DNA of 49,599 bases, from the IMG/VR virus record IMGVR_UViG_3300050821_007602, positions 1 to 49,599 of that record. One strand, written 5' to 3'. The translations under genes and the position numbers were made by a program. The notes beneath the pieces were generated by a model. It saw nothing but the letters and a program-made list of their open reading frames with translations. It did no database searches and was not told where the DNA came from. This stretch comes from a virus. Every line of letters begins with the position of its first letter. Position 1 is the first letter of the stretch. Shown here in pieces: positions 3,654 to 48,788 of the stretch.

Positions 3654-3856
3654 TATGGATGCTCGTAAATGCGTTTGATTGTATTCGCCGCGATTCGTTT
3701 CTCAATCCATTTCTCTGCCTCGGTAGATATTTGAAATTCCCTGTCAAACAGGTGCCGCTGATCCGCGTCCATGGCAGTATGCCAGAAGAACCAGCCTTTA
3801 TATTGTACCTTACAGGTACCATTCTGATACTTAATTATCCGATATCTGGTAGTCAT
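3653..3856 (-). CDS. hypothetical protein (67 aa)
   Basis: A 67-residue protein starting MTTRYRIIKYQNGTCKVQYK, with a GWFFWHT aromatic patch and a charged helical C-terminus. It starts four bases inside the serine-protease reading frame and ends in TAATG with the membrane peptide. The pattern looks like a small beta-rich phage protein; no function recognised. Confidence 0.6.
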   Translation of the reverse strand: MTTRYRIIKYQNGTCKVQYKGWFFWHTAMDADQRHLFDREFQISTEAEKWIEKRIAANTIKRIYEHP

Positions 3857-4125
3857 TTGAGATCCGCAAGTTCAGAAGCCGGGGTCAGGTAACCAATCAT
3901 AAACGGAATACCATTAATAACCTTCACTTGATCCATTTCAGCAAGCCCCATCACGCAACTGAGGGAATCATCTACTGCAGGGCCACCACTGTTCCCAGGA
4001 ACTACCGAGGTATCATACTGGATAAAATGATCAAATGGAACTGTCAGAATATCCTCTTGGGAGCGATCAGGGTAAGCAACATGGCCAATAGAAACAGTCT
4101 TGGATAGACCCAGGGGTCCTCCCAT
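3853..4125 (-). CDS. trypsin-like serine protease, C-terminal half after in-frame UGA (catalytic Ser)
   Basis: This segment carries the catalytic serine motif VVPGNSGGPAV and the strands that follow in trypsin-like (HtrA/S1) folds. It lacks His and Asp, which are in the upstream segment 4183-4545. The two are in the same frame: after ATC AAC the codons run TGA CCC GTT GGG CTG... and reach MGGPLGLSKTVS without any other stop, and that bridge (AVCSFKPYYGEVLDLMGGPLG) is just what the family has at this place. The ATG at 4125 may therefore not be the natural start. The full-length product by UGA readthrough would be about 230 residues. Confidence 0.7.
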   Translation of the reverse strand: MGGPLGLSKTVSIGHVAYPDRSQEDILTVPFDHFIQYDTSVVPGNSGGPAVDDSLSCVMGLAEMDQVKVINGIPFMIGYLTPASELADLK

Positions 4126-4182: not shown

Positions 4183-4545
4183 TCAGTTGATCGTGGCATC
4201 ACTGGTGGTAAGGGTCATGATGTCCGGACCCGTTGTATCGTCTGCATCACCGAGCTTCTGAATGTGGAAAGGATGTTTCTTCCCATCCCCAAAATCTACA
4301 TTCAACACTGCTGTTGGATCCAATCCTTCGGCACAGTGTGCTGCCGTTACTACCTCATGAGTTCCTTTGAGTACCCAACCACTACAGTATCCTGAATCTG
4401 TTGTCACTGCTACTACATTCTCTAGTTTCTGTTCCAGAGTCGGTGGAGGAACATAGTGACTAGTCTCATAATAGATATGACCAAACAGAGACACCATAGC
4501 AATGAATGCCAAGGCACCAAGGGCGCTACCGATCTTCGTAAACAT
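4183..4545 (-). CDS. membrane-anchored trypsin-like serine protease, N-terminal half (catalytic His, Asp)
   Basis: It starts with a membrane anchor or signal (KIGSALGALAFIAMVSLFGHI), then YCSGWVLKG, the catalytic histidine in VVTAAHCAE, and the Asp region GPDIMTLT. Translation stops at TGA (4185-4183) in the context UGA-C, the leakiest stop context known in bacteria. The same frame then continues into the GNSGGP half. Either the gene is read through, or it is decayed, or the base is a sequencing error. The protease would act at the inner membrane or periplasmic face; its target is unknown. It lies between a small hypothetical gene (TAATG overlap) and a 67-residue protein. Confidence 0.75.
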   Translation of the reverse strand: MFTKIGSALGALAFIAMVSLFGHIYYETSHYVPPPTLEQKLENVVAVTTDSGYCSGWVLKGTHEVVTAAHCAEGLDPTAVLNVDFGDGKKHPFHIQKLGDADDTTGPDIMTLTTSDATIN

Positions 4546-5815: not shown

Positions 5816-6049
5816 CTACTCGCTCCCATTGTCGGCTCCCCTCGGGTCAAAGCTGATGCCTTCCATATCCTCGGCATTGTAATCCTCCTCATCTGCACCA
5901 AAACCCTCGGTGCTTTCGGTGATATCGGGTATCTCTTCCGCGACGTAAGAAAAGCACCGATCACATAGGTCAATAAAAGTCCCGCTAGAAGAATATTTGC
6001 GAGTGCTCTCACGATTGTTTAACCTCACATTGCAACTTAGGCAACGCAT
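5816..6049 (-). CDS. zinc-binding acidic protein (77 aa)
   Basis: MRCLSCNVRLNNRES and DLCDRCFSYV supply two CxxC pairs typical of a zinc ribbon, followed by a strongly acidic tail (EEIPDITESTEGFGADEED...). The ATG follows AAGGATAATAT. Acidic tails with a zinc knuckle occur in phage transcription or inhibitor proteins, but no specific family is recognised. Confidence 0.65.
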   Translation of the reverse strand: MRCLSCNVRLNNRESTRKYSSSGTFIDLCDRCFSYVAEEIPDITESTEGFGADEEDYNAEDMEGISFDPRGADNGSE

Positions 6050-6061
6050 ATATTATCCTTA

Positions 6062-6508
6062 TTATCGTGGCCGACGTGGCGGAGCAACTGGACGATTGAA
6101 GAGGTCGTCAAGATTCACGTCACGGGGTTCCCATCTATCAGGATCAAATTGAGCCGGAGCAGCAATCTTGGCTTTTTCCACTCGTTTAGCTTTTACTACT
6201 GGTTCGAGCTTCACTCCATCTGGTAAGACTTCCAGAATTGTTTCCTCTTCTTTCAGTCGATCCGGAAAATTCCGAGCCCGATCGTTGAACACCAGAATCG
6301 AGCCGGTAACAGGGGACTTCAGATTCTCCAACCCATCATTGGTTTCAATGACGAGCATGGGTCCTCCCCTGACTACCTTGTTCAGATCCGCCTGCATCAC
6401 GTGGAAACACTCACCCAACTTCTCTTCAATGAATCGTTGGGTAAATCCGATACGGAGTGTTCCTCGTGGACTGGTTTCTGTCCAGAGATTTCCGTTAACT
6501 TCTTTCAT
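6062..6508 (-). CDS. GcvH-like (biotinyl/lipoyl-fold) protein lacking the lipoyl lysine
   Basis: Residues 18-85 follow the glycine-cleavage H protein closely: an IGFTQRFIEEKLGECFHV strand-helix pattern, then GGPMLVIET, then LKSPVTGSILVFNDR, equivalent to YAPVSGEIVAVND in GcvH. The modified lysine of the family (ESVKA) is replaced: here the segment reads ETNDG, with Asp58 in that position, and Lys64 just after. It therefore should not be lipoylated at the usual site. The C-terminal 50 residues are charged and proline-rich. It lies in the same operon as the ATP-grasp and amidoligase genes (one small gene between), so it may be a carrier, scaffold or substrate for them; that is inference. The family call is from pattern only. 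Confidence 0.6.
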   Translation of the reverse strand: MKEVNGNLWTETSPRGTLRIGFTQRFIEEKLGECFHVMQADLNKVVRGGPMLVIETNDGLENLKSPVTGSILVFNDRARNFPDRLKEEETILEVLPDGVKLEPVVKAKRVEKAKIAAPAQFDPDRWEPRDVNLDDLFNRPVAPPRRPR

Positions 6509-6696
6509 TTCAAATCCCTCAAAAAGATTTCAATCTTCTCCAGTGTATCTGCATCGTCTCTAGAAAGTTTGGAGAACGCAGACGTTGGATGTAGAATCTC
6601 CCATCTAGCTCTATGTATGATTACCAAGAGATCGTCCAAGTCTTGCTTGGTCTCTAGAGTAATCGTCATCGGAGAAAATTGTTTTTGGATCTTCAT
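6505..6696 (-). CDS. hypothetical protein (63 aa)
   Basis: A 63-residue helical protein (MKIQKQFSPMTITLETKQDL...KIEIFLRDLK). Its start overlaps the ATP-grasp stop and its stop overlaps the GcvH-like start as ATGA, tying the amidoligase island and the GcvH-like gene into one translationally coupled string. Not recognised. Confidence 0.6.
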   Translation of the reverse strand: MKIQKQFSPMTITLETKQDLDDLLVIIHRARWEILHPTSAFSKLSRDDADTLEKIEIFLRDLK

Positions 6697-7478
6697 TTTA
6701 GATGCCTAACAAACGCTTGTGCGTAGTTTCCCACGGTACTGCCCTCAAGTCCTGGCGCGGTGTTGACTTCCAGACAGTAACACTCGTTCCGTTTTTCATT
6801 CCAAATGATGTCAACTGCACCAAAGTCGAGGTTGAGTTGAGCCACCACTCGTTGAGCCATTTGTCGCATCCCTTCAGGCTCGGTGATGTCTTCACGACAA
6901 TAGACCCATCCGGTTTGATGATTACGTACCTGAAAGTCCGCCTTAAAATCTTCTGGCAGATCCTTTCGTTTTCGCTTTTCCTGAACATCGATTACTTCTC
7001 CAAAGGCGACGTGGATCCGGAACTCTTTTTGCTTCTTGATGTACTGCACATACAACGGTGCCCGGACCAGTTTATCTTCGGTATCAGCAAGCACAATACC
7101 GGCACCAGAATGACCAGAAAGTACGGTCCGACACACCACAGTAATCTTTTCAGCCAACCAGCTAGTTGCAACAGCTCGGTCGGTAGTATAAACGGGTATA
7201 CGAATTCCATCCACATCCTTCAAGGCGTTAAAAGTACTCAGCTTATTACTGGCCACAGCTACAGCATCGAAATTGTTGATAGTCCGCTGCGGATGTCCAT
7301 TCGCCACTGTATGCCAATGGCTGTTACCCCAGTTAATCACAATAGTCCACGGATGATGAGTGAATGTGGGATTCGGTCGATCAATGAACAGTCTTCGGAT
7401 TCTGTAGCCGCAGAGTTCGCTCATTGATAGAGCCAGATTCCTTGCTGACTGAGAGCCGATCTTGTACGGCAGCAGCAC
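6693..7478 (-). CDS. ATP-grasp ligase of the phage amidoligase island
   Basis: A 261-residue ATP-grasp enzyme, which would couple a carboxylate, via acyl-phosphate, to an amine or thiol. Visible motifs: the N-terminal LLPYKIGSQSARNLALSM and TIVINWGNSHW; ATP-binding strands in YIKKQKEFRIHVAFGEVIDVQEKRKR; and the metal-binding core NLDFGAVDIIWNE...CYCLEVNTAPGLEGST, where D, E and N chelate magnesium as in RimK and D-Ala-D-Ala ligase. A GTG at 7478 after AAGGCGG gives the conserved N-terminus and makes the gene overlap the amidotransferase by 98 bases in another frame. Starting at the internal ATG (7424) would remove conserved residues. Confidence 0.82.
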   Translation of the reverse strand: MLLPYKIGSQSARNLALSMSELCGYRIRRLFIDRPNPTFTHHPWTIVINWGNSHWHTVANGHPQRTINNFDAVAVASNKLSTFNALKDVDGIRIPVYTTDRAVATSWLAEKITVVCRTVLSGHSGAGIVLADTEDKLVRAPLYVQYIKKQKEFRIHVAFGEVIDVQEKRKRKDLPEDFKADFQVRNHQTGWVYCREDITEPEGMRQMAQRVVAQLNLDFGAVDIIWNEKRNECYCLEVNTAPGLEGSTVGNYAQAFVRHLK

Positions 7479-8988
7479 TAGAGGCCGCCTTGGTGCGGGC
7501 TGCTTCAATTGCTTTCTTGGTGTTGGTGTACGATGCAAGGTACTTGCCACGGTAGTCCTCCCGTTCAATCTTCTTGGCGATACAGTCAGGGCACAACATT
7601 GTCAGTACATTAACTGGCTTTTCTTTCTTCGGCATGATGACATGCTTCTCAACGAGAGTTGTAAATACTTTCTCCCAAGCCTCTACCTTACGTTGACATT
7701 CCATACAGCATCCATGATTCATGGCATAGTCCCACAACATAACCGGGACTTCCTTGGAATGTACCTGTGTAAATGTAGCCTTCTTGGTATCCTTTACGTG
7801 GATGGTCCATCCTCCATTAACTGTATGGGTATGATGTTGTACCGTACCAATACACATTGTTTCAAACCACTGAGGCAATTCATTCCCAGATACATCATGA
7901 GGAAGAAAGCCCTTGACATCCAGACGTTCTTTTCCGGGGGTCATAACCAACCCATTGAAAGAGAATCGTCCATTGGCTGTCTTCGATGCTGCATGAATCT
8001 TGATCAGCATTGTCTCATTACGAGGGAATGCCTCATTGTACGCATGGATGGATGCAGTCCGTGCTTCAGCCTGATCCTCATCACTAGAAGGCGAGGTGTC
8101 TTTTGCGAGCGTTAGCGCGCAGGGCTTCGAAGGCGTCGGGGTCGAGTGGGCTTGTTTTGCGGGAGCCATCTCCGTCCCTTTCGGAAAAAGCTCACAGTCC
8201 TTCCGTGCTTGTGCCCTCATACCCGTACTATATCGTTGCCAAGCCAGTAGCTCGGCATCATCGTCGAACTCCCCCGATAGGGTCACATCCTCCTTATTAA
8301 AGGAGCCATCCGCGTTGAATACAAAGATCTCACCCGGTTCAATCGGGATTGACCGCTTGATCTCAATGTGAGCGCGCTGTGCCGGGAACGCAGCAATCCA
8401 CGCCTCAGAAGTGAGGAACATGAAGTTATCACTCTCCAGAATACAGAGAGGACGTTCATCATTCCGGGTAGCGTACAACTTCTCAGTATTGGTATCATAC
8501 CAGATCAGTGCAAATGCCCCATTGATCTTGGAGATTACTCTCTTGTAATCACCGTGATCTTCCAATTCACTTTCTTCTGCCAACGCGTGGGCAATAGCGT
8601 GGCTATCCACTTTGGTGCTCACGTCGGTCAGGTTCTTCTGATCCTTCAATGTACCGTTGTGAACCAGAATAATATTCTTTTCCACAAAGGGATGGGCGTT
8701 GTCTGTGTTGACTTCACCACGGGTCGCCGCACGGTTGTGCCCAACAATAAACTTACCCCGATTGGTAACACTAGACTTGAATTCTCCCCACTCCGTCGAT
8801 CGGAATAGATTGTAGGGATGTGAGCCATGCTTGATAGCTCGAACATCACCGTTACGGAAACGGGTAAATACTCCCGTCGAATCCTTCCCCCGGATGGAAT
8901 CAATCAGCAACATGGTTTCGAATACCTCCACGTCACCATAGTTGAATCCTTGGGGCTTACGAGCGATCATTCCCAAAAGTCCGCACAT
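7381..8988 (-). CDS. class II glutamine amidotransferase (Ntn-type) with C-terminal Cys-rich domain
   Basis: A 535-residue protein that starts MCGLLGMIA, the Cys2 nucleophile of Ntn amidotransferases exposed after Met removal. Further motifs are IRGKDSTGVF, VGHNRAATRGEV and ILVHNGTL (oxyanion and glutamine binding), then TRNDERPLCI, covering residues 1-235 as in GlmS and asparagine synthetase. A Ser/Thr/Pro-rich linker (about 290-310) leads to a second domain with HHTHTVNGGW and cysteine pairs CCMEC and LCPDC, likely zinc-binding. No synthase domain of a known pathway is attached, so it probably delivers ammonia, or a glutamyl group, to the neighbouring ligases. It is preceded by the amidoligase gene at a spacing of three bases. 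Confidence 0.88.
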   Translation of the reverse strand: MCGLLGMIARKPQGFNYGDVEVFETMLLIDSIRGKDSTGVFTRFRNGDVRAIKHGSHPYNLFRSTEWGEFKSSVTNRGKFIVGHNRAATRGEVNTDNAHPFVEKNIILVHNGTLKDQKNLTDVSTKVDSHAIAHALAEESELEDHGDYKRVISKINGAFALIWYDTNTEKLYATRNDERPLCILESDNFMFLTSEAWIAAFPAQRAHIEIKRSIPIEPGEIFVFNADGSFNKEDVTLSGEFDDDAELLAWQRYSTGMRAQARKDCELFPKGTEMAPAKQAHSTPTPSKPCALTLAKDTSPSSDEDQAEARTASIHAYNEAFPRNETMLIKIHAASKTANGRFSFNGLVMTPGKERLDVKGFLPHDVSGNELPQWFETMCIGTVQHHTHTVNGGWTIHVKDTKKATFTQVHSKEVPVMLWDYAMNHGCCMECQRKVEAWEKVFTTLVEKHVIMPKKEKPVNVLTMLCPDCIAKKIEREDYRGKYLASYTNTKKAIEAARTKAASSAAAVQDRLSVSKESGSINERTLRLQNPKTVH

Positions 8989-8991
8989 CAG

Positions 8992-9888
8992 TTATGCTCC
9001 GATAGTTTTAAAGTAAGGCGACTCTTTCGAGACACTTTTGATCAAGGTTATTAACTTGTTACGGTCGATAAACGACCTCTTGACTACACCACTCGAACGA
9101 CGGATATCTTCAAATGATTCAAACTTCAAACGGATATCATCGTTCCCAAAGATATCGTGTAGCAATTCCCTCCAATTCGTAAAGGCATTACACTCGATAG
9201 CCAACCGACGGATAGAGGGAGTCCCCACCTTCAATACATAGTCGATCAACTTGTTGATAATCCGAATCCAGATCACCACCTTATTGTGATTGAAGGTTCC
9301 ATGCATGTGACGGAATTCAATAGTGCCGAATTCCCCCAGCGGAATGATATTCAATCCCGCATACTTGGACCAAGTTTCTACAACGGCACCCAGATTCTCC
9401 CGACCCATACCAGTAGTCAGCATGGTATCCATCAAAGGTACACAGTAGATATTCTTGATCCGTCCACGACCCGTATACTTATAGAACAACGGTTCAAGGA
9501 TGGTATACAACATCAAGATGTCAGTTACCTGTGTGCCCGTCATCCCCTGACAATTCACATGTACGTGGATGGACGTACGTGGAGAGAAACAACAAGATTC
9601 AGCCAGACTATTCCCCAGCAAATCCTGCAATGCATTGGGGGCGTGCTTGGCCTCGATAGGATGGGTTATCCATTCCACACCAGCGTTGCGCAAACTACCA
9701 TCTGCCTTGTTCATCCACACCTGTTGTGGATTGTGCTTATATCCGGCATTCTCCACTTCCACTTCAATACCGATGGCCCGATCACAGTCGATAACCTCTG
9801 GACCAGGCTGCATCGTGGCATAGAAGGGACCAGCATCCAGTATCGTCGGAGGACGTACCCCGAAGATATCTCCTACAGTTTTAGCCAT
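8992..9888 (-). CDS. amidoligase (COOH-NH2 ligase family, PF12224-like)
   Basis: A 298-residue member of the glutamine-synthetase-like amidoligase family. Motifs: AIGIEVEVENAG (metal-binding Glu residues on the first strand), KADGSLRNAGVEWITHPI (the DGSL...E..T signature), RTSIHVHVNCQ (the HVHV metal or phosphate site) and GTIEFRHMHGT (ExRxxxG). These enzymes activate a carboxyl group with ATP and condense it with an amine. Family-level prediction comes from published comparative genomics of amidoligases; no substrate is known. It overlaps the upstream 208-residue gene by eight bases. Confidence 0.87.
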   Translation of the reverse strand: MAKTVGDIFGVRPPTILDAGPFYATMQPGPEVIDCDRAIGIEVEVENAGYKHNPQQVWMNKADGSLRNAGVEWITHPIEAKHAPNALQDLLGNSLAESCCFSPRTSIHVHVNCQGMTGTQVTDILMLYTILEPLFYKYTGRGRIKNIYCVPLMDTMLTTGMGRENLGAVVETWSKYAGLNIIPLGEFGTIEFRHMHGTFNHNKVVIWIRIINKLIDYVLKVGTPSIRRLAIECNAFTNWRELLHDIFGNDDIRLKFESFEDIRRSSGVVKRSFIDRNKLITLIKSVSKESPYFKTIGA

Positions 9889-10507
9889 GAATATCCTCCA
9901 GCAAGAATTGTACAGTCGGACGATAATCTTCTTCCATCAACACCGTGAGTTTCCCCTTCGAGTCCACTCGTGCAATCGGATGAACCCAATGCCATAGTAC
10001 ATAATCCGGATTCTCAAACAACGTTTGAGTCAAGGTGAAGTTATCCCGTAGTGCAACACCACGAAATCCCCCTCCCTTCAACATCTTCAATGCATCCTTG
10101 ACAGAATATGTTTCGTGCTCAAAGGCATCACGGATTTCTGCGTGATTCCACCGGGACCGATTACCCACCACATTTCGGGTAACATTAAACAGAACACTGT
10201 TGTCCGGACAAATTCCCCTCCGATATTGTCGTTGAGGACGGCGATAGAACACCATCGCGTCATTACCGTGCTGGAATACCCCGACCGGAGGATACTTGAA
10301 TCGGAGTTGATGCCCGTCCGATCCAAAATTAATCTGGAATTTACCCAGAGTATCACTGGATAGATGCATGGTGGCAATCTTCGATCCACCGGTCTCTTCT
10401 ACCAGATCTACCTTGACCAGTTCTTCCTCTCGATCTGCGATATCCAGCCAGACAAACGTACCTTGCCAACGACGGCCAAAGTCCTGGATCACTTCCGAGT
10501 TAGTCAC
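9881..10507 (-). CDS. hypothetical protein (208 aa) within the amidoligase island
   Basis: A 208-residue protein I cannot assign. Features: beta-rich N-terminal half (GTFVWLDIADREEELVKVDLVEE), a basic FYRRPQRQYRRG stretch, then YSVKDALKMLKGGGFRGVALRDNFTLTQ and an aromatic DYVLWHWVHPIARV segment. The GTG start overlaps the upstream ligase stop (GTGA). Because it is sandwiched between the two amidoligases with coupled translation, it is a candidate substrate-binding or accessory component. Confidence 0.7.
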   Translation of the reverse strand: MTNSEVIQDFGRRWQGTFVWLDIADREEELVKVDLVEETGGSKIATMHLSSDTLGKFQINFGSDGHQLRFKYPPVGVFQHGNDAMVFYRRPQRQYRRGICPDNSVLFNVTRNVVGNRSRWNHAEIRDAFEHETYSVKDALKMLKGGGFRGVALRDNFTLTQTLFENPDYVLWHWVHPIARVDSKGKLTVLMEEDYRPTVQFLLEDIHG

Positions 10508-11283
10508 AGTCCAATCTCCTGCTTCAGTTGAGCGAGCAACTTCAGATCGCTGTTGTTGATACAGGCTTGGATCATCTCACCTTGTTCATCCGTGAATGTC
10601 CGACCAGATGCTACGAATTCCAGAGCTTTTTCGGTCTGATCCCAGACCCACTGAATCCGTTCATCCGATTCTATCCACCGATTGGACGCGGTACGATACT
10701 CCACCCCGTAACTCTTCTTACGGAATGCTCCGGCCTTACCATACAACTCACGACGACCAGCATCGTTGTCAAACTCCAGCATCAGACAGCCAACAAAGGC
10801 GTCCATTGCCTTGACAACAGCCAGCATGTCCATCTCATCATGGTCAAACTGAATGTGGATATGGCCACCACAGGAACGGAGATTCTTGTTCGCTGCTTGG
10901 GGAGGGGGGTTTTGATTACCGTTATTCCACGCATTGTAATCCGGCTCACAGCCGAAAGTCTTAGCAGCACGAGTCTGCAACTGATCATCATCGAACACGG
11001 CACTGGGCTTGATCACCATTTCCAAACCCAACTCAGCAGCCCGAGCCTTAATCCAATCCTTGTTCAGATTGATGTTCTTGATGAAATCCGCCGCACTTCT
11101 GCAAGGAGGGGTGTTGAACTCAATCGTAACGTTGTCTTCCTGCACAGCGTTACCTTCATCGTCAATAGGACGAGGTTGTTCTTTCGAACCCCCTACCAGA
11201 CCAACACTGCTGATGAACTTGTTGTTCTTCGGATCGAAGAGAAACGTTTCAGGATCACAGCCAAGGCGTCGAATTTGTTGCAT
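10504..11283 (-). CDS. phiEco32-type COOH-NH2 ligase (amidoligase type 2, PF14395-like)
   Basis: A 259-residue second amidoligase of a different subfamily. It opens with RRLGCDPETFLFD (the D-x-E metal site), then FISSVGLVGGSKEQP, and NVTIEFNTPPC; the central SCGGHIHIQFD gives the H-x-H site, and YGVEYRTASNRW gives the ExRxxSN motif. This is the family first named from phage phiEco32. Two different amidoligases in one operon imply two successive amide bonds or two substrates. It starts at ATG seven bases after the C26 gene stop, with GAGG as ribosome site. Confidence 0.87.
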   Translation of the reverse strand: MQQIRRLGCDPETFLFDPKNNKFISSVGLVGGSKEQPRPIDDEGNAVQEDNVTIEFNTPPCRSAADFIKNINLNKDWIKARAAELGLEMVIKPSAVFDDDQLQTRAAKTFGCEPDYNAWNNGNQNPPPQAANKNLRSCGGHIHIQFDHDEMDMLAVVKAMDAFVGCLMLEFDNDAGRRELYGKAGAFRKKSYGVEYRTASNRWIESDERIQWVWDQTEKALEFVASGRTFTDEQGEMIQACINNSDLKLLAQLKQEIGL

Positions 11284-11290
11284 GTTAACC

Positions 11291-12034
11291 TCACTTATTC
11301 AGGATATATTGATCAACTTTACGCAGACAATACTGTACAAACGGACTTTCTTCCGGATTACCCACAAACTCCGGGTGACCTTGGATCGCGAGACCCTTGA
11401 TATCCGGGAACCACACAATTTCCGGTTCAGGGGTATCCGTCTTGTGCATCTCCATATCTTCAGCATCGCCCTCCGTGACATATGTGTTACTCCGCTTCGG
11501 CCACGCTTGTGCCAACAATACGTGAGACACATCAAACGGATACATCATCTGGTGGTGTACCGACGTGGTATTGATCAGGATATCTTCATCCAGACACTTC
11601 ATCCCGTGTGTACCACTGTGACTGTTCACATGCTGGATAAGACGACCACCAGCCAAAGCACAGAGCAACTGAGCCCCTCGACACACACCAATAAGAGGAA
11701 TATTCCGCTCCATAGCAGCAAAACATGCTTCAGCTTCCACCTGATCCCGTCGTGATAGGCTTGTACGAGCACCAGTATACTTACTGGGAAGCTCACCATA
11801 GAGAGAAGGAGAAATATCCTCGCCACCCCAAATAACGAGGGCATCAATGTCGGCTCCTTTTGCAATCTCCGTGGGAGTTACCAGTCGCCCCTTCTGGTAA
11901 CGTTGATCAAAGGGATCAAGAGTACCGGTACCCATTCCCACATGACCGAGAGTCAACACCTTTGGTTCTTGTCCCAACGTTAGTACTTCGCTTTCAACTG
12001 CCTTAACGATATCTGTCAATTTACTTACTCCCAT
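11291..12034 (-). CDS. class I glutamine amidotransferase / gamma-glutamyl hydrolase (peptidase C26-like)
   Basis: A 247-residue triad amidotransferase-fold protein. The nucleophile elbow is IPLIGVCRGAQLLCALAGG (Cys), and the catalytic His is in LAIQGHPEFVG followed by Glu; LVIWGGEDISPSLYG is the N-terminal G-G-x-D-x-x-P motif of gamma-glutamyl-gamma-aminobutyrate hydrolases such as PuuD. It should hydrolyse a gamma-glutamyl amide, in step with or opposed to the amidoligases, as PuuD opposes PuuA in putrescine metabolism. Its ATG lies inside the end of the upstream gene (14-base overlap). Confidence 0.87.
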   Translation of the reverse strand: MGVSKLTDIVKAVESEVLTLGQEPKVLTLGHVGMGTGTLDPFDQRYQKGRLVTPTEIAKGADIDALVIWGGEDISPSLYGELPSKYTGARTSLSRRDQVEAEACFAAMERNIPLIGVCRGAQLLCALAGGRLIQHVNSHSGTHGMKCLDEDILINTTSVHHQMMYPFDVSHVLLAQAWPKRSNTYVTEGDAEDMEMHKTDTPEPEIVWFPDIKGLAIQGHPEFVGNPEESPFVQYCLRKVDQYILNK

Positions 12035-12377
12035 TTGTCAGAACATAACATTCGAGGGTATTACCACTTCCCGGATTCTTCCACTTGTGGACAAACAAAC
12101 AGTCCGGTTGTTCACGCACCAGAGTGCGCAATTCCTTATTATCAAATATCCGATTACCACTACGTTTAACAAAGTTAAACACAATAGGTCGTTTTCCACA
12201 GCCCACGCGAGCGTTTTGTAACTCAGCAATCCATGCTTCTTTTAGCGTGGGAAATCCGGCTTTTCGCCACGAGAAAGTCCCCAAAAGCGGATATGAATCA
12301 AAACTTCCTGCCGTCATCATTCCACAGCAATATGGAATATCATCTACAGACATATCTGCTACAAATTTCTTGCTCAT
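12021..12377 (-). CDS. hypothetical protein (118 aa), paralogue of the adjacent upstream gene
   Basis: Shares a pattern with the gene at 12379-12687: PYCCGMMTAGSF, then RPIVFNFVKRSG, then a helix ending CLFVHKWKNPGSGNTLECYVL. The adjacent protein has PFCCGFNEAGYF, RPLIFNFVGSSP and VLYLGHWTNPGTYNRIDSYII in the same order. The conserved Cys-Cys-Gly, the N-F motif and the W-x-NPG end suggest a small alpha/beta enzyme or binding domain. Function unknown. It leads directly into the C26 gene of the amidoligase island. Confidence 0.7.
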   Translation of the reverse strand: MSKKFVADMSVDDIPYCCGMMTAGSFDSYPLLGTFSWRKAGFPTLKEAWIAELQNARVGCGKRPIVFNFVKRSGNRIFDNKELRTLVREQPDCLFVHKWKNPGSGNTLECYVLTNGSK

Positions 12378-12378
12378 T

Positions 12379-12687
12379 TCAATCCTCAGCAGTTGTCATA
12401 TTGTTCTTGATGATATAAGAATCAATCCGATTGTACGTACCCGGATTGGTCCAGTGCCCCAGATACAATACATCTGGGTGGTTCTTCACCGCCGCAACGA
12501 TTTCCTCCGGACTAGACCCCACAAAATTGAAGATCAGTGGACGACCATTGGCCTCGTGGATCAACTCTTCAACCAGTTCAACCGCCGAATCGGAATTGAA
12601 TTCGGTATCGTCATCGCCCGTGAAATACCCCGCTTCATTGAAACCACAGCAAAATGGTAACCGGGCGGTATCTGCTTGGAAACTCAC
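12379..12687 (-). CDS. hypothetical protein (102 aa), tandem paralogue
   Basis: The GTG start at 12687 overlaps the upstream stop (GTGA) and gives MSFQADTARLPFCCGF. A longer frame to 12804 would run through the upstream gene and gives a low-complexity Arg-rich N-terminus, so it is rejected. The protein aligns by eye with its downstream neighbour along the full length (CCG, FNFV, HWTNPG blocks). A tandem duplication followed by divergence is the simplest explanation. Confidence 0.7.
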   Translation of the reverse strand: MSFQADTARLPFCCGFNEAGYFTGDDDTEFNSDSAVELVEELIHEANGRPLIFNFVGSSPEEIVAAVKNHPDVLYLGHWTNPGTYNRIDSYIIKNNMTTAED

Positions 12688-13139
12688 AGTTCCACCTCCG
12701 GTTCCGTCGTTGTTTTGGCGACTGGCTTGAGAACCAATTCGCCTGCGTCGTTGTACTGCTTGGTGATAATGGTGGGCTGCGCGGTCTCGAAGATATCTCC
12801 ACACTTGAACACCCCATAGAGACGGGTAGGCTTCAACGCAGCTTGCTCTTCTGCATACGTCTTGGCTTTACCCTCCGATGTGAATACAACTATGTCATTC
12901 TTGGTCTTGGAATCCGGAAAGAAACCATAACCAGAATCTTCTGCGGGAGAATCTTCCACAATCACTTGAGGACGTCGCTCAGCGCGACGATTGTCCGGCT
13001 GTGCCCGGGCCGGTTGAGCTTCCTGCAACCCAAACCCCGGATCCCGTCCGATCCCATTTACGAGTACTAACTTGTTAGGATCAGCAGCTACGTCCAGTGG
13101 AACGACCAGCCACATACGCCCTACAGTTTTACCAGCCAT
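12684..13139 (-). CDS. hypothetical protein (151 aa) with disordered middle
   Basis: The N-terminus MAGKTVGRMWLVVPLDVAAD is followed by a disordered Arg/Ala/Gln/Pro-rich part (about residues 40-65), then a folded segment containing NDIVVFTSEGKAKTYAEEQAAL and a KCGDIFETAQ strand, and an acidic tail. Not recognised. It is upstream of the paralogue pair and has a four-base overlap with it. Confidence 0.6.
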   Translation of the reverse strand: MAGKTVGRMWLVVPLDVAADPNKLVLVNGIGRDPGFGLQEAQPARAQPDNRRAERRPQVIVEDSPAEDSGYGFFPDSKTKNDIVVFTSEGKAKTYAEEQAALKPTRLYGVFKCGDIFETAQPTIITKQYNDAGELVLKPVAKTTTEPEVEL

Positions 13140-44423: not shown

Positions 44424-44558
44424 TTAGATTTCAATTACATCTTTGTACCATAGAATCCGCAGTACTCCAAGATCCAGACATCCGATGAATCCCATCTGCT
44501 CATCTTCTACGTATTCAATACCAAAAGCTAAACCGTGAATAAACTGGAACACTATCAT
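44424..44558 (-). CDS. small hydrophobic protein (44 aa)
   Basis: MIVFQFIHGLAFGIEYVEDE then IGCLDLGVLRILWYKDVIEI. ATGA overlap with the reductase stop. I recognise the HG(L/I)AFGIEY...LDLG(V/I)xRIxW type from small proteins encoded beside nucleotide-metabolism genes of phages; function unknown. Too short for a length-filtered scan. Confidence 0.65.
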   Translation of the reverse strand: MIVFQFIHGLAFGIEYVEDEQMGFIGCLDLGVLRILWYKDVIEI

Positions 44559-46447
44559 AAGATGTCACAACTCCCTGAAGTACAGGCGAACTCTTGGGCA
44601 CCATTCGTAGTGTCTTCATTCGTCTCATAGTTATCAAACTCTACCCAAGGTATCTTTGGGAACGATGCTCGAAGTTCATTATACTTTTCCTCCGAGATAT
44701 CCTGGTATGGCGCTTGTTGATATACGTGATCATTGTGAGGTAGGAAAGAGACTCCACCAATTTCATCCAGGTGTTTATACACCCATGCACCAACTTCAAG
44801 CCACTCATGTTCCCTCACGTACACAGTAATACTTGGGTTATGCTCACACCAATGACGCTTAAAAGATAGGTAATGTTCCAACTGTTGGAGCGCAGTACGG
44901 TCCGATCGGTTAATACTACCAGCAGGAGCAGCCACTGGAAAAGAGAAAACAAGATTAGAACTATTCGTAACGTCCACTTCATATGGGACTCCTTTCTCCT
45001 GCATGAATACTGCAAGTGGATCTTTTACATCAGCTCGGACAGTACGCACATAATGACTATTATGGCGAGGGTGTATCCCACTAGCACTGTCCACCAACTG
45101 AGATACAGTGCCACTAGGCTTAACAGTAGTAATAGCAGCACTAGGATTAATCCCCAGCTTTGCAGACCACTCAGCATTCGTGTGAATAGTTTCATTCTTT
45201 AGTCCGGTGAGTAGATCCGCGAGATCAGTGCCCCTATCATGGCCCCTATCATGGCCGCTAAGGATAGGATTATCCATAATACCAGTAAGAGACACCCCCA
45301 ACAAGCGTTCGTCTTCCGCATTTACTTTCCATTGCTTTCGGATGTACCGAAAGTCTGTGAGTGTTGATTGGAACGTCCCAAGGATTGTAGCGAGCCTAAC
45401 CTTATCGATAAGTTCCTTACTAGTATCCGATTGTCGGACAACGACTTCTGTAAGGTTACAAAAACCGAAGGGTCGGAGAATGATCTCCCCGCAAGGGTTT
45501 GTTCCAAAGTCGTGATCAACTTCTCGGCGCCCAGTAGCTGCTGCTTGCTTCTTTGCAGATACCCGGTTATATATTCCACGTTCGCCTGATTTGCTTTCAT
45601 AGAGAGCATGCCATTCCTTCATAAAGATACCAACATCTGGCTTTTCAGTATACGCTACAGAATTATTGGCAAGAGCGCGGTGAACAGAACCATCCCACCA
45701 AGCACCATTCTTGGCGTTCCGCATACGTTCATCCGTGAGATTAGACAAGCTAATGAGGGCGCTACGACGAACCCCACCAACCACAACCACCTGTGCCACT
45801 TTACATACCAGGTCATGACATTCTATTGAGTTGAGCTTTCGGCCCAAGGCACCCTTGAATAGTTGTTTAGTGAAGTTGAATAGTTCCACCAAAGGAGCAG
45901 GACCACTTGCTCGGCCTCCGAAAGTTTTGAGGCGCGCTCCTGAAGGTCGGATTCGGTCAACATCAAGTGACGGAGATTGTCCTGAATAAAGGAGGGCGAT
46001 GAGTTGGCGAAATGCCGAAGCCCAGCCCTGTTTAGAATCTGCGACAACAATATTTGTTTCCGAATCGTAAATGCGCTCCGGAACTTCTGGAAGTTTATTA
46101 ATGTATTGTCTTTCAACACTGAATCCTACTCCAGTACCATTCATTAGAATGAACATAATTTCATCGAAACACTTCTGATCCTGAATAGGAATATAGGAAC
46201 AGTTATATCCTGCGATGTTATCCCGTTCAAGAGCCGGACCAGCCGTCATCAATGCCCGCATACTGGGCATTACCTCCAGACCATGAATAGCAGTATAAAT
46301 ACTATCATAGGGGAAAAGATCGCCAAACCTATTAGCCCAGAAATCACAATACCGCTTAACCGTTTCATGCCAATGTTCCCGTCGGCCCTCTTTATCTAGC
46401 CACCTTGCATAGCGGCTTTTATATACATAGTGTTGTAGATCGTTCAA
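44555..46447 (-). CDS. adenosylcobalamin-dependent ribonucleoside-triphosphate reductase (class II, monomeric type)
   Basis: About 630 residues. It reduces NTPs to dNTPs for phage DNA synthesis without oxygen or an iron cofactor, using B12. Active-site cysteines are all present: AGYNCSYIP (first redox Cys), FGTNPCGEIILRPFGFCNL (thiyl-radical Cys and the second redox Cys eleven residues later, as C408/C419 in Lactobacillus RTPR), and a C-terminal CTSGSCDIL pair. A TTG at 46447 with AAAGGGA ten bases upstream is used; a TTG at 46474 lies in the preceding gene. An in-frame 12-base tandem duplication (45231-45254) gives a GHDRGHDRG loop. Confidence 0.93.
   Translation of the reverse strand: MNDLQHYVYKSRYARWLDKEGRREHWHETVKRYCDFWANRFGDLFPYDSIYTAIHGLEVMPSMRALMTAGPALERDNIAGYNCSYIPIQDQKCFDEIMFILMNGTGVGFSVERQYINKLPEVPERIYDSETNIVVADSKQGWASAFRQLIALLYSGQSPSLDVDRIRPSGARLKTFGGRASGPAPLVELFNFTKQLFKGALGRKLNSIECHDLVCKVAQVVVVGGVRRSALISLSNLTDERMRNAKNGAWWDGSVHRALANNSVAYTEKPDVGIFMKEWHALYESKSGERGIYNRVSAKKQAAATGRREVDHDFGTNPCGEIILRPFGFCNLTEVVVRQSDTSKELIDKVRLATILGTFQSTLTDFRYIRKQWKVNAEDERLLGVSLTGIMDNPILSGHDRGHDRGTDLADLLTGLKNETIHTNAEWSAKLGINPSAAITTVKPSGTVSQLVDSASGIHPRHNSHYVRTVRADVKDPLAVFMQEKGVPYEVDVTNSSNLVFSFPVAAPAGSINRSDRTALQQLEHYLSFKRHWCEHNPSITVYVREHEWLEVGAWVYKHLDEIGGVSFLPHNDHVYQQAPYQDISEEKYNELRASFPKIPWVEFDNYETNEDTTNGAQEFACTSGSCDIL
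45231..45254. repeat. 12-base direct tandem duplication inside the reductase gene
   Basis: CCCCTATCATGG occurs twice in tandem, in frame, adding the four residues of a GHDR repeat. A recent in-frame slippage. Confidence 0.85.
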
Positions 46448-46449
46448 TA

Positions 46450-46563
46450 TTAATATGTCCCTTTCCAATACCAATAACCATTAAATTCTTTCAGCTTAAT
46501 ATAAGGAAGCAAATCAGGATAAGGAAAGCGAGGTGCTTTAATTACAAAGTAACTATGTCCCAT
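46450..46563 (-). CDS. hypothetical small protein (37 aa)
   Basis: MGHSYFVIKAPRFPYPDLLP to FNGYWYWKGTY, aromatic-rich. ATG with GGGAAG eight bases upstream; a longer frame (to 46680) overlaps the previous gene. Ends directly before the reductase start. Not recognised. Confidence 0.45.
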   Translation of the reverse strand: MGHSYFVIKAPRFPYPDLLPYIKLKEFNGYWYWKGTY

Positions 46564-47151: not shown

Positions 47152-47449
47152 TTTTGTAGTCATCTTCCTCGTAGTACATATCTAACCCCAGTGCCGAACC
47201 AATGGTGTGTTCCAGGGTAGCCCCCTTACTCTCTTGCCATCCAATAAGCATATACATCGCTTCACAATGAATCAATGCTTCAATATCCTTGATCATACAT
47301 TCTTTCCAGTCCGCATTTGGATCTGGGTTAATGTCGACCGGATTGATAACCTCCCAACCAGTATACCGAAGATCATCTGCAGCAGTATTGAAAGCATCGA
47401 AGTTCATCCCTTCATATCCAGACATCGGTCCAGCAATATAGATGCTCAT
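47096..47449 (-). CDS. DUF4406 / nucleoside 2-deoxyribosyltransferase-like protein (117 aa)
   Basis: MSIYIAGPMSGYEGMNFDAF then YTGWEVINPVDINPDPNADW, then LIHCEAMYMLIGWQESKGAT and EHTIGSALGL: the IAGPMSG...N..AF, NP, and D...GA..E...A..LG pattern defines the family, which is a Rossmann-like fold related to deoxyribosyltransferases. In the nucleotide operon, a nucleoside-related role is plausible. ATGA overlap with the gene upstream. Confidence 0.75.
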   Translation of the reverse strand: MSIYIAGPMSGYEGMNFDAFNTAADDLRYTGWEVINPVDINPDPNADWKECMIKDIEALIHCEAMYMLIGWQESKGATLEHTIGSALGLDMYYEEDDYKNDNNGTDTAGNDGEAESA

Positions 47450-47790
47450 TTTTTTAGATCATCCAGGTCAGGTCGATTCTTCATGAAATGAGATAAGAAC
47501 ATCCAGCAGCAACCCACATGATCAATATGAGGGAGACCACTCTCCGGATCATTATACTCTCCCTTAAGTATCGCGAAAATATGTCTAAGCAAAGCAGCAA
47601 TAACACGGCTCCAGCTAATTCCGCCGCGCCAATTATTGCGAGCATACTTCTTGGCTCCAAAGGTAAGAACAGCCGCAAGACCTTCTAAGGCATCTGGATC
47701 CAGTAGATCCATCATTACCTTATCCTGATCATCCTTACGGCCTGTTGGTTGGTTACTCCATTCAAGGAGTTCTAGTTCTTGAATGCCCAT
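47446..47790 (-). CDS. dATP/dGTP diphosphohydrolase-like protein (114 aa)
   Basis: Residues from KDDQDKVMMDLLDPDALEGL, then VLTFGAKKYARNNWRGGISW, SRVIAALLRHIFAILKGEYN and DPESGLPHIDHVGCC match the phage family annotated as dATP/dGTP diphosphohydrolase N-terminal-like (D.....KYGxxNW, E..H). The family is related to MazG-type all-alpha NTP pyrophosphohydrolases. The start is at 47790, just after the previous stop; an in-frame ATG at 47853 overlaps that gene. Likely adjusts dNTP pools with the reductase. Confidence 0.7.
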   Translation of the reverse strand: MGIQELELLEWSNQPTGRKDDQDKVMMDLLDPDALEGLAAVLTFGAKKYARNNWRGGISWSRVIAALLRHIFAILKGEYNDPESGLPHIDHVGCCWMFLSHFMKNRPDLDDLKK

Positions 47791-47791
47791 A

Positions 47792-48034
47792 TTAATATGC
47801 GGTAATGACCAAAGGTTTATCGGTGGCAGCTTTAAGTTTTTCCAGTCGATCATTTAGATCCAGAATAGCCATAGAGAGAACATGGAATGTGGTTGCATCG
47901 GCTGTCTGCCAATCTTCCAGATCCTTGGCATACACCAGAGCTCCCCCAGCCCCATGCATCAACTCTTCAATCCGTTTATAATCGGACGCATCCATGCGTG
48001 CCGAACGAGCTGTGCTCTTATCAGTTTGATCCAT
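47792..48034 (-). CDS. hypothetical protein (80 aa)
   Basis: MDQTDKSTARSARMDASDYK, then IEELMHGAGGALVYAKDLED. Helical; not recognised. Overlaps the phosphoesterase end by 14 bases. A longer frame (to 48115) runs inside that gene. Confidence 0.55.
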   Translation of the reverse strand: MDQTDKSTARSARMDASDYKRIEELMHGAGGALVYAKDLEDWQTADATTFHVLSMAILDLNDRLEKLKAATDKPLVITAY

Positions 48035-48788
48035 ACTTACGCTCCAGATAGGGGAGACTAATAAACATCTCATCGAACTCACCATCATCGACTTCATTGA
48101 GCATGAAGGCGCCACGCCAGTGTTTATTACCCTGGGATCCTAGATAATCTTCATCATGTTCATAACATGAACCTGCAATGATAGAGGAGATACGTCGTCC
48201 ATCTGCCCGGTATCCATAAGCGACCTGTCGACCTTGTTGGTGGCCAGCAATACAACTCATGTGCTTTTTGTTAAGAGTGAGTTGAGCACTTGAGATAGGA
48301 CGGTTGCTAACACCGGTGACAAAATAATGGCTGTAAGCAATACCATCAATAACAACCACGTCAAGAAACGGGTGTACTTCCCACCCATAATCGCTGTAAC
48401 CCAGGTCATCGACACTAATAGTCCCATCGAGTTTAGGATCACCATTAACCACGCGATCAATTCGATTCTCGTGGTTACCGAGGGTAAGAACCATTCGAGG
48501 CTTGTACTGACGTTTACCATTCTTTCGCTGCCTATCGTTGTGTTCCTTAATAGGCTTCAGAAGGTGCTCCATTGCTTTATGGCTTGCTTCCACGTCAGCG
48601 ATATACCGACGACCTTCGAACGCCTTTTTACCAATATCGTAGCTAGACAAACTAGCCATATCGGCGAAATCCCCAATATTAATAATAATATCAGGTTGAT
48701 GGTCACAGATATAATTACCAATTCGTGTAAGATAATCATAACTGTGACCAGGTTTTACCTGACAATCTGGCAAAATAAAATGTCGCAA
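48021..48788 (-). CDS. calcineurin-like metallophosphoesterase (255 aa)
   Basis: Metal-binding motifs are in order: MRHFILPDCQVKPGHSYDYL (DxH-like start), IIINIGDFADMASLSSYDIG (GDxxD-like), RMVLTLGNHENRIDRVV (GNHE), then HYFVTGVSNRP and IAGHQQGR (GHxQ/H) near the end. It would hydrolyse a phosphomono- or diester; possible targets are nucleotides or nucleic acid. TTG start. Confidence 0.85.
   Translation of the reverse strand: MRHFILPDCQVKPGHSYDYLTRIGNYICDHQPDIIINIGDFADMASLSSYDIGKKAFEGRRYIADVEASHKAMEHLLKPIKEHNDRQRKNGKRQYKPRMVLTLGNHENRIDRVVNGDPKLDGTISVDDLGYSDYGWEVHPFLDVVVIDGIAYSHYFVTGVSNRPISSAQLTLNKKHMSCIAGHQQGRQVAYGYRADGRRISSIIAGSCYEHDEDYLGSQGNKHWRGAFMLNEVDDGEFDEMFISLPYLERKYGSN

Follow-up and report, generated by a model that had tools for sequence, protein, structure and literature searches.

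The window, a 49,599-nucleotide stretch of viral DNA, carries six tightly packed genes on the minus strand, from position 12034 to 6693. Read along that strand, they encode a C26/PuuD-fold hydrolase (C26, 247 aa, 11291..12034), a phiEco32-type COOH-NH2 ligase (CNL2, 259 aa, 10504..11283), a protein of 208 aa (U208, 9881..10507), a PF12224 amidoligase (AL, 298 aa, 8992..9888), a protein with a class II (Ntn) glutaminase domain and a further C-terminal half (GAT2, 535 aa, 7381..8988) and a RimK-like ATP-grasp ligase (GRASP, 261 aa, 6693..7478). The distances between successive genes are +7, −4, −8, +3 and −98 nt. The ORF holding GRASP (6693-7568) opens at the TTG at 7568; judging by the family consensus start, translation probably begins at the GTG at 7478 instead. 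All of the motifs and gene identities quoted in the original prediction were found in the translations: CRGAQ and QGHPEF in C26, GCDPE and GGHIHI in CNL2, GIEVEVE, HVHV and EFRHMHGT in AL, and MCG at the N-terminus of GAT2. With curated cut-offs applied, all five enzymes exceed their Pfam thresholds, and PHROGs assignments for the cassette proteins agree with Pfam. The range first proposed, 6062-12687, does enclose the cassette but is wider: a 148-aa ORF and a 63-aa ORF fall inside it, together with one complete tandem paralogue and part of another, whose profiles have relatives in only 3–5 of 41 sequences. None of the six cassette proteins matched a PADLOC 2.0.0 anti-phage defence model at E ≤ 0.01. 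Synthesis of Z-DNA (2-aminoadenine) in the window was considered and rejected, PF18909 being found and a PF00709 (PurZ-type) match being absent.

We compared the window with 114 non-redundant loci. These were found via CNL2, so the frequency of that gene is fixed by construction. The cassette genes share one strand in these loci. A search for the gene order, as proposed in the original prediction, found C26-CNL2-U208-AL-GAT2-GRASP in 51 of the 114, as well as in the window (a separate entry, listed reversed); the order varies among loci. Since the six-gene order recurs this often, the cassette is far beyond chance. Among the 61 well-flanked loci (5.5 kb or more on each side), AL was present in 60, GAT2 in 60, GRASP in 58 and all four core enzymes in 58. 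Carriers range over phiEco32-like coliphages, Bruynogheviruses and crAss-like phages, and the cassette looks virus-restricted. Five enzymes and a partner are thus retained across very different tailed phages, and because the set stays together in them, its product must matter.

Primase/helicase replication genes lie within 3 kb in 73 of the 114 loci. The set itself, gamma-glutamyl cyclotransferase (GGCT) and replication genes aside, no family within 3 kb exceeded 35 of the 114 loci, and an encoded acceptor is therefore not apparent. Likewise, no conserved carrier or precursor peptide was found near the cassette among ORFs of at least 40 aa. For these counts, single-linkage clusters were split where the primase/helicase family (73 loci) had merged with the CNL2 cluster, and 13 ORFs of 338–347 aa with the U208 cluster. 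Of the 310 CNL2 phage records, 60 were listed, and every bacterium named in them is Gram-negative; one, Cellulophaga, belongs to Bacteroidota. This fits an acceptor common to diderms.

C26 scored 65.9 bits against Peptidase_C26 (PF07722; cut-off 20.5) and has the Cys-His-Glu set, with C118 in 29/30 and H220 and E222 in 30/30 aligned ORFs. Its nearest solved structures are Lin1909, a 'probable glutamine amidotransferase' and PuuD, and its catalytic residues correspond to those of PuuD. It is probably a hydrolase of gamma-glutamyl amides. The analogy with PuuA/PuuD drawn in the original prediction stands as a resemblance but not as closer kinship: C26 reached 19.7 bits on the PuuD equivalog NF008471 (cut-off 266). 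Its best NCBIfam match, gamma-glutamyl-CDP-amidate hydrolase, gave 32.6 bits, far under the cut-off of 250.

The window phage has C26 and lacks GGCT. GGCT has a fold unlike that of C26 and acts on the same kind of bond. C26 was absent from 10 of the 61 well-flanked loci, nine of which had GGCT, and one or the other was present in 60 of the 61, counted anywhere in the fetched locus and not solely inside the cassette. The pattern corresponds to roughly five branches that lack C26, of which four have GGCT. We do not rely on p values here (p = 0.006 for C26/GGCT in the 61 loci), since this Fisher test, like that for U208/GGCT, ignores kinship and there were too few pairs for the tree-based test. 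Within the sensitivity of tblastn, the GGCT of PaP3 matched 209 of 50,697 phage records and the window's C26 matched 58; by this measure, phages in general seldom carry a close relative of either. The 65-kb record L080 has neither gene anywhere. L095 is not a C26-less locus, as C26 was found at the other end of its contig, and neither PaP3 orf49/orf50 nor the 323- and 399-aa proteins of YW01 were supported as divergent C26. A minimal CNL2+C26 module in L024 and L128 was also rejected, because GAT2 and GRASP matches occur elsewhere in the 95-kb L024 virus record and on the same contig for L128; AL was not found in the L024 record or the L128 contig.

The two amidoligases match different Pfam families. 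CNL2 scored 36.3 bits against COOH-NH2_lig (PF14395; cut-off 25) and matched phrog_3815 at E 3e-68 and NCBIfam TIGR02050 at E 5e-5, the latter under its cut-off. Its alignment (n = 22) has 36 invariant columns, and it appears distantly like the GCS2/YbdK carboxylate-amine ligases. AL scored 29.7 bits against Amidoligase_2 (PF12224; cut-off 22) and matched phrog_7469 at E 3e-39, with G40, E42, E44, D63, S65 and E72 in 37/37 and H108, H110, E191 and R193 in 36/37 aligned ORFs. Compared profile to profile, CNL2 and AL gave an hhalign probability of 0.4%, and only the HxHx stretch was aligned.

U208 adjoins AL (≤400 nt) in all 81 loci holding both and is probably its partner; AL and GAT2 adjoin at the same distance in 92 of 107. 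The U208 structure model has a pLDDT of 92.4, and the sequence weakly matches phrog_11055 (E 4e-5). Nothing in the PDB matched at E ≤ 0.001 and no family stood out in PDB and VIA searches, which does not imply a new fold. VIA matches fall chiefly in residues 1–121, where the modelled N-terminal part resembles small beta-barrels at Z up to 6.1, a level (about 6) also reached between unrelated small barrels. Where U208 is missing, AL is nearly always N-terminally extended: its amidoligase domain begins at residue 116–275 in 25 of the 26 U208-less loci with a measurable start, against a median of residue 14 in loci with U208. In the 26th (L111) the domain starts at 67 and an unmatched 231-aa ORF fills the U208 slot; in L105, AL is split. 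The idea that U208 is a hidden domain of the long ALs was not supported, as U208 and the extension share no profile similarity (hhalign probability 0.1%).

GAT2 scored 57.4 bits against GATase_6 (cut-off 27), and its best Foldseek match was the GlmS glutaminase (E 1e-15). C2 is kept in 33/36 aligned ORFs and R86, N111, G112 and D128 in 35/36; these positions align with GlmS. Matches to the NCBIfam GlmS (glutamine-fructose-6-phosphate transaminase) profiles extend only to profile position 236, with 74 of the 381 bits required for the subfamily and 58.8 of 418 for the equivalog. The C-terminal half, to which Pfam assigned no domain, contains a CxxC...CxxC pair that is present in the family consensus.

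GRASP exceeded the Pfam RimK cut-off (25.9 versus 21 bits) and matched phrog_2599 at E 3e-73. Residues K109, E182, R184, K198, D253, E267 and N269 (numbered from TTG 7568) are present in 34/34 aligned ORFs. Its closest solved chains are two 'probable alpha-L-glutamate ligases' and two S6-glutamate ligases (E 1.3e-13 to 4.5e-12). Pfam and NCBIfam found no Mur-ligase or wall-binding domain in the cassette, only sub-threshold D-Ala-D-Ala ligase matches of GRASP; such matches are common to the ATP-grasp fold. In SU10, an ATP-grasp protein, a glutamine amidotransferase and a YtfP-type protein were detected by mass spectrometry (PMC4281155).

As far as sequence can tell, the active-site residues of all five enzymes are intact and the enzymes are conserved jointly. 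Loss of catalytic residues or a lack of co-occurrence would have spoken against the original prediction; instead, the residues are kept in aligned relatives and the genes strongly co-occur in related loci. Its central idea, a pathway coupling amide formation to gamma-glutamyl trimming, holds up, and the set may, as it suggested, attach two amine-bearing groups to a target.

We propose a virus-restricted, cytoplasmic, glutamine/glutamate-fed pathway that would form amide bonds on a host acceptor, for which peptidoglycan precursors are the least forced choice. GAT2 would split glutamine to give ammonia, and CNL2, as a distant GCS2/YbdK-type ligase, would make a gamma-glutamyl amide. AL with its adjacent partner U208 would form a second amide, possibly using GAT2's ammonia, and GRASP would add another amino acid, probably glutamate in alpha linkage. 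C26 or GGCT would strip gamma-glutamyl groups, for protection or editing. No carrier gene was seen travelling with the set, which makes a common host molecule the probable acceptor; candidates are the stem-peptide precursors of peptidoglycan, whose alteration might exclude rival phages. We regard the chemistry as likely. The full statement, acceptor included, we offer tentatively, at a little under an even chance, and peptidoglycan as the acceptor is more doubtful still. The search for the target is narrowed by the lack of a conserved carrier, by a nearly constant gamma-glutamyl-cleaving enzyme of two folds and by U208 as AL partner.

The product could instead be a free small molecule, a gamma-glutamyl amide or amidated peptide active in the infected cell, for example against host defence or on nitrogen/polyamine metabolism. 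Gamma-glutamylation followed by removal by C26 or GGCT is small-molecule logic, known from PuuA/PuuD and butirosin BtrJ/BtrG. The best NCBIfam match of C26, far under its cut-off though it is, and the lack of a carrier or precursor gene point the same way. A passage of PMC11898732 reports that infection by phages including LUZ24 alters amino-acid pools or genes, but it also names six other phages in which the cassette is not shown. Outside replication, there was no further widely conserved family to serve as exporter or effector (unnamed families were not annotated individually), and we consider a free product unlikely.

GRASP is nearest to RimK-type ligases, which goes against the peptidoglycan reading. 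RimK modifies a protein. In this rival reading, GRASP together with CNL2 and AL might attach glutamyl or other amino-acid groups to a protein of the host (or of the phage), with U208 recognising the substrate and C26/GGCT acting as eraser. The barrel-like N-terminal part of the U208 model would suit such a role, but its Z lies in the range that unrelated small barrels reach. R2K, another family of phage ATP-grasp ligases, is predicted in the portion of PMC4431377 consulted to modify host proteins. Against this, GRASP fell below the NCBIfam RimK-family cut-off (TIGR00768; 40.1 versus 143.4 bits), and protein modification accounts less well for the near-constant retention of two further ligases and a glutaminase. 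We judge it improbable.

The cassette's position in the replication module, beside primase/helicase, raises the possibility that it modifies nucleotides or DNA bases and so shields the genome from restriction. A passage of PMC11990801 describes Gordonclarkvirinae as remarkably resistant to restriction-modification (RM) systems, with no known modification pathway; EcoRV, EcoKI and EcoP1I are named in this paper. The set is present in Bas88, the one member examined, and in the region of YW01, a similar coliphage. Site loss does not explain the resistance for these three systems in this one genome, because Bas88 is not depleted in their sites (observed versus expected: EcoRV, 30 versus 18.9; EcoKI, 9 versus 8.5; EcoP1I, 131 versus 136.8). 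However, the BASEL authors, in the same passage, favour a dCTP deaminase and a nucleotidyltransferase, both of which Bas88 has. Phage tf has genes for the amidoligase and the glutamine amidotransferase, as well as homologues of two UFV-P2 proteins, the COOH-NH2 ligase and the ATP-grasp; the part of PMC3517423 consulted reports its DNA as cut by RsaI, HpaI, EcoRV, SmaI and HaeIII. We rate DNA modification as very unlikely. A joint reading fares no differently and we think it highly improbable: a virus-only pathway would make a new amide-linked, gamma-glutamyl-derived modification, either of nucleotides or in the form of a free anti-defence compound, and this would partly account for the RM resistance despite the sites, with U208 a previously unrecognised adaptor presenting the acceptor to AL and replaced by the AL N-terminal extension in the branch with the crAss-like phages. 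Since Gordonclarkvirinae coliphages carry the set and show unexplained restriction resistance, the cassette is testable in E. coli K-12; the laboratory model would be Gordonclarkvirinae infecting K-12 with restored O-antigen.

The pathway we prefer, acting on a host acceptor, belongs to a cassette that is not new, and the window phage is another member of an already described set. The literature available to us in part names no tested substrate, as the original prediction had supposed, and the portions of PMC7824862, PMC6209634, PMC6256558, PMC7881722, PMC12118408 and PMC12733950 consulted contain nothing on the function of the set. That prediction knew of single members from phages; such members exist, but a passage of PMC5498523, citing Hardies 2013 and Iyer, describes a whole 'peptidoglycan modification cassette' in RIO-1, PSA-HP1, phiEco32, 7-11, PA11, tf, MR299-2, LUZ24, PaP3 and CW02. 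Peptidoglycan as the target is likewise a proposal in print (passages of PMC5498523 and PMC10580990). The published cassette, like the window, brings together a gamma-glutamyl amidoligase, a second amidoligase, an ATP-grasp protein, a glutamine amidotransferase and a gamma-glutamyl hydrolase, and in the window these lie on one strand with the two COOH-NH2 ligases different.

Individual phages differ in the trimming enzyme. Over the full PaP3 record, GGCT is present and C26 is missing, the opposite of the window, and Bas88 and the YW01 region also have GGCT and no C26. Judged by CNL2, the nearest phage record (51.8% identity) is Alcaligenes phage vB_Af_QDWS535, which has the same order of all six genes, but with an additional GGCT upstream. 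Among cellular systems, the PuuA/PuuD pathway likewise places a C26 hydrolase beside a gamma-glutamyl-type ligase, whereas CNL2 is PF14395/GCS2-like rather than PuuA-type and C26 is far from the PuuD equivalog. GAT2 shares with GlmS the Ntn glutaminase fold and what we take to be glutamine-pocket residues but, unlike GlmS, matched no sugar-isomerase domain in Pfam. Similarly, GRASP shares with RimK (ribosomal protein S6 glutamate ligase) the residues that presumably form the metal and ATP sites of the ATP-grasp fold, yet scores outside the NCBIfam RimK family.

The window, a virus record of 49,599 bases, has a podovirus-like layout: its plus strand encodes terminase, portal, head and internal-virion proteins, and its minus strand carries the genes for primase and DnaB-type helicase. 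Sharing the minus strand is a cassette of six packed genes, running from 12034 down to 6693 in the order C26 (a hydrolase), CNL2 (a phiEco32-type COOH-NH2 ligase), U208 (208 aa), AL (a PF12224 amidoligase), GAT2 (a class II glutaminase with an unassigned C-terminal half) and GRASP (a RimK-like ATP-grasp ligase), with successive gaps of +7, -4, -8, +3 and -98 nt. GRASP probably starts at GTG 7478, though its residues are numbered here from TTG 7568. The original prediction of an island of amide-bond-forming genes is borne out by Pfam and PHROGs, which assign five of the six proteins to known families. Immediately upstream of C26 are tandem paralogues (12021-12377 and 12379-12804, minus strand) sharing a CCGxxxAGxF-type motif; the profile of each retrieves both copies, in only 3 of 41 sequences. 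Other minus-strand genes in the window include a trypsin-like protease that appears split across two adjacent ORFs (3853-4125 and 4183-4545; Trypsin E 0.002 and Trypsin_2 E 8e-5, both short of the cut-off), a B12-type ribonucleotide reductase (44555-46474), a PF18909 dATP/dGTP diphosphohydrolase (47446-47853; E 1.5e-32) and a metallophosphoesterase (48021-48788). An adenylosuccinate-synthetase-like PurZ was not found anywhere in the window record.

We compared 131 sequences, made up of the window, four phage records, 11 genome-contig loci and 115 loci on viral contigs. Two scans supplied the viral-contig loci; the second confirmed 393 stretches, of which the best 80 were returned. Removal of 17 overlapping copies left 114 loci, and in none of them are the detected cassette genes split between strands. 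The exact order seen in the window, which is itself listed in reverse, recurs in 51 of the 114. Among the 61 well-flanked loci, those with at least 5.5 kb on either side of CNL2, we detected AL in 60, GAT2 in 60, GRASP in 58, C26 in 51, U208 in 39 and GGCT, a gamma-glutamyl cyclotransferase, in 30. All four core genes (CNL2, AL, GAT2 and GRASP) were present in 58 of the 61, the exceptions being L024, L036 and L114, and C26 or GGCT was present in 60; with the window and the near-identical contig L041 left out, these figures become 56/59 and 58/59. Since loci were located via CNL2, the counts measure what travels with CNL2. Within this frame, the genes proposed from one sequence co-occur strongly. 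One 39-kb MAG contig (L128) carries an expanded set, with C26 and the GAT2 and GRASP regions each present twice alongside GGCT, and no AL detected.

The catalytic residues, whose loss would have counted against the original prediction, are kept in the five recognised enzymes. Across alignments built from the first 41 sequences, some of whose ORFs are cut by contig ends, C26 retains His220 and Glu222 in 30/30 and Cys118 in 29/30; GAT2 retains Cys2 in 33/36 and Arg86, Asn111, Gly112 and Asp128 in 35/36; GRASP retains Asp253, Glu267 and Asn269 in 34/34; AL retains Glu42, Glu44 and Asp63 in 37/37 and His108 and His110 in 36/37; and CNL2 retains His141 and His143 in 40/40. HMMER alignments place the conserved residues of GAT2, C26 and GRASP on positions of GlmS, PuuD and RimK, respectively, that we take to be functional in those proteins. 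Searches by sequence for solved relatives returned no chains for CNL2 and a single chance-level match for AL (E 0.61). CNL2 weakly resembles GCS2 (E 0.019) and YbdK (E 5e-5), both below the cut-off.

C26 is absent from 10 of the 61 well-flanked loci, and nine of those ten have GGCT, which also occurs in 21 of the 51 loci with C26. In the CNL2 tree, sequences lacking C26 occupy about five branches (the PaP3-like one, a group close to the crAss-like phage, L029, L131 and L080), and GGCT was found in the first four. Whole-record searches of PaP3, L029, L109 and L080 gave no C26, but the L080 record also gave no GGCT, which counts against the alternation. L131 belongs to a MAG of 2.3 Mb, and other parts of that assembly have C26-type matches. 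In coliphage Bas88, and in the region of coliphage YW01, GGCT was found and C26 was not. The pattern is suggestive, short of proof, of a need for gamma-glutamyl bond cleavage, with either fold sufficient.

Across 50,697 phage records, CNL2 matched 310 and AL matched 336. For the seven genera listed under both, the two counts are close to equal; the AL matches also include 14 Arthrobacter and 7 Porphyromonas phages. GGCT (PaP3 query) matched 209 of these records, 6 Bacillus phages among them, and C26 (window query) matched 58; phages overall therefore seldom carry a close relative of either. None of 72,556 plasmid records matched CNL2, and a search of 5,426 E. coli genomes with the cassette DNA of Bas88 gave no near match. 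A scan of 84,980 species genomes, which relies on short patterns and may miss distant cellular relatives, yielded 11 loci, every one on a MAG contig of 4.8-49.5 kb; these fit stray phage contigs. The cassette looks virus-restricted.

U208 lies within 400 nt of AL in 81/81 loci and next to CNL2 in 79/81. Loci lacking it fall mostly in one region of the CNL2 tree (two changes), and in almost all of them AL is extended at its N terminus. We infer that U208 is the partner of AL; the extension may be a replacement for it or a divergent homologue. Its structure model (pLDDT 92.4, pTM 0.86) had no Foldseek match in the PDB at E<=0.001 and nine at that threshold in a viral library, the named ones being uncharacterised phage proteins; in VIA it met small beta-barrels, mostly over residues 1-121, at an uninformative level (Z <=6.1). 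In L029 (7022-8803), U208 is fused C-terminal to about 380 residues with two WxPWxGG-type repeats, with no Pfam match. In two crAss-like phages AL is followed directly by a uracil-DNA glycosylase gene (L147, 11264-11974; L005, 11738-12376), and in phi14:2 the two genes share 10 nt.

The glutaminase GAT2 has no recognised synthase domain, and its ammonia must therefore pass to a different enzyme; among its neighbours AL is the most frequent (92 of the 107 loci that hold both). The gamma-glutamyl amide that C26 or GGCT would cut is most plausibly made by CNL2, and GRASP would attach an alpha-linked residue in the manner of RimK. Neighbour families outside the set were drawn from ORFs of at least 40 aa within 3 kb of the cassette in the 114 loci. 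Primase/helicase is the commonest (73 loci) and never falls inside the cassette, followed by GGCT (38 loci) and three families in 35, 26 and 23 loci. A small MRCxxC protein in the window (5816-6049, minus strand) resembles, by eye, the zinc-finger family near the cassette in 35 loci. No conserved family among ORFs of this size fits a carrier, so the phages are unlikely to encode an acceptor that is conserved alongside the enzymes.

A host-made molecule shared by the Gram-negative hosts named in the listed CNL2 records (60 of 310) is the probable acceptor. Peptidoglycan precursors fit this description; a protein or a small molecule may take their place. DNA may also be the acceptor, given that Gordonclarkvirinae, with which Bas88 is placed, withstand restriction-modification systems for unexplained reasons (PMC11990801) and that EcoRV, EcoKI and EcoP1I sites are not depleted in Bas88, but the cutting of phage tf DNA by five enzymes (PMC3517423) is a clear point against it. 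Sites that are depleted in Bas88 are PstI (0, expected 21.4), GATC (167, expected 297.0) and EcoRI (9, expected 25.0). For the resistance, PMC11990801 suggests a dCTP deaminase and a nucleotidyltransferase; the words "amidoligase" and "glutamine amidotransferase" are absent from its main text.

The phage cassette is real, intact, well conserved and already described. In RIO-1-like podoviruses it appears as a seven-gene "peptidoglycan modification cassette", listed also for phiEco32, 7-11, PA11, tf, MR299-2, LUZ24, PaP3 and CW02 and credited to Hardies 2013 and an Iyer paper (PMC5498523). Cell-wall modification by phiEco32 against superinfection is a suggestion of Iyer 2009, according to PMC10580990. 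UFV-P2 carries cassette genes, a GGCT-like ORF among them (PMC3890496), and a concentrated SU10 preparation gave six ATP-grasp, nine glutamine amidotransferase and two YtfP-type peptides (PMC4281155). The literature searched, with most subscription journals outside its coverage, yielded no experimental substrate. Relative to the descriptions found, what is new here is the wide sampling with counts, the alternation of C26 and GGCT, the pairing of U208 with AL together with a confident U208 model, the finding that no carrier is conserved, and a laboratory-tractable host, with a phenotype yet to be explained, to which the cassette is now linked.
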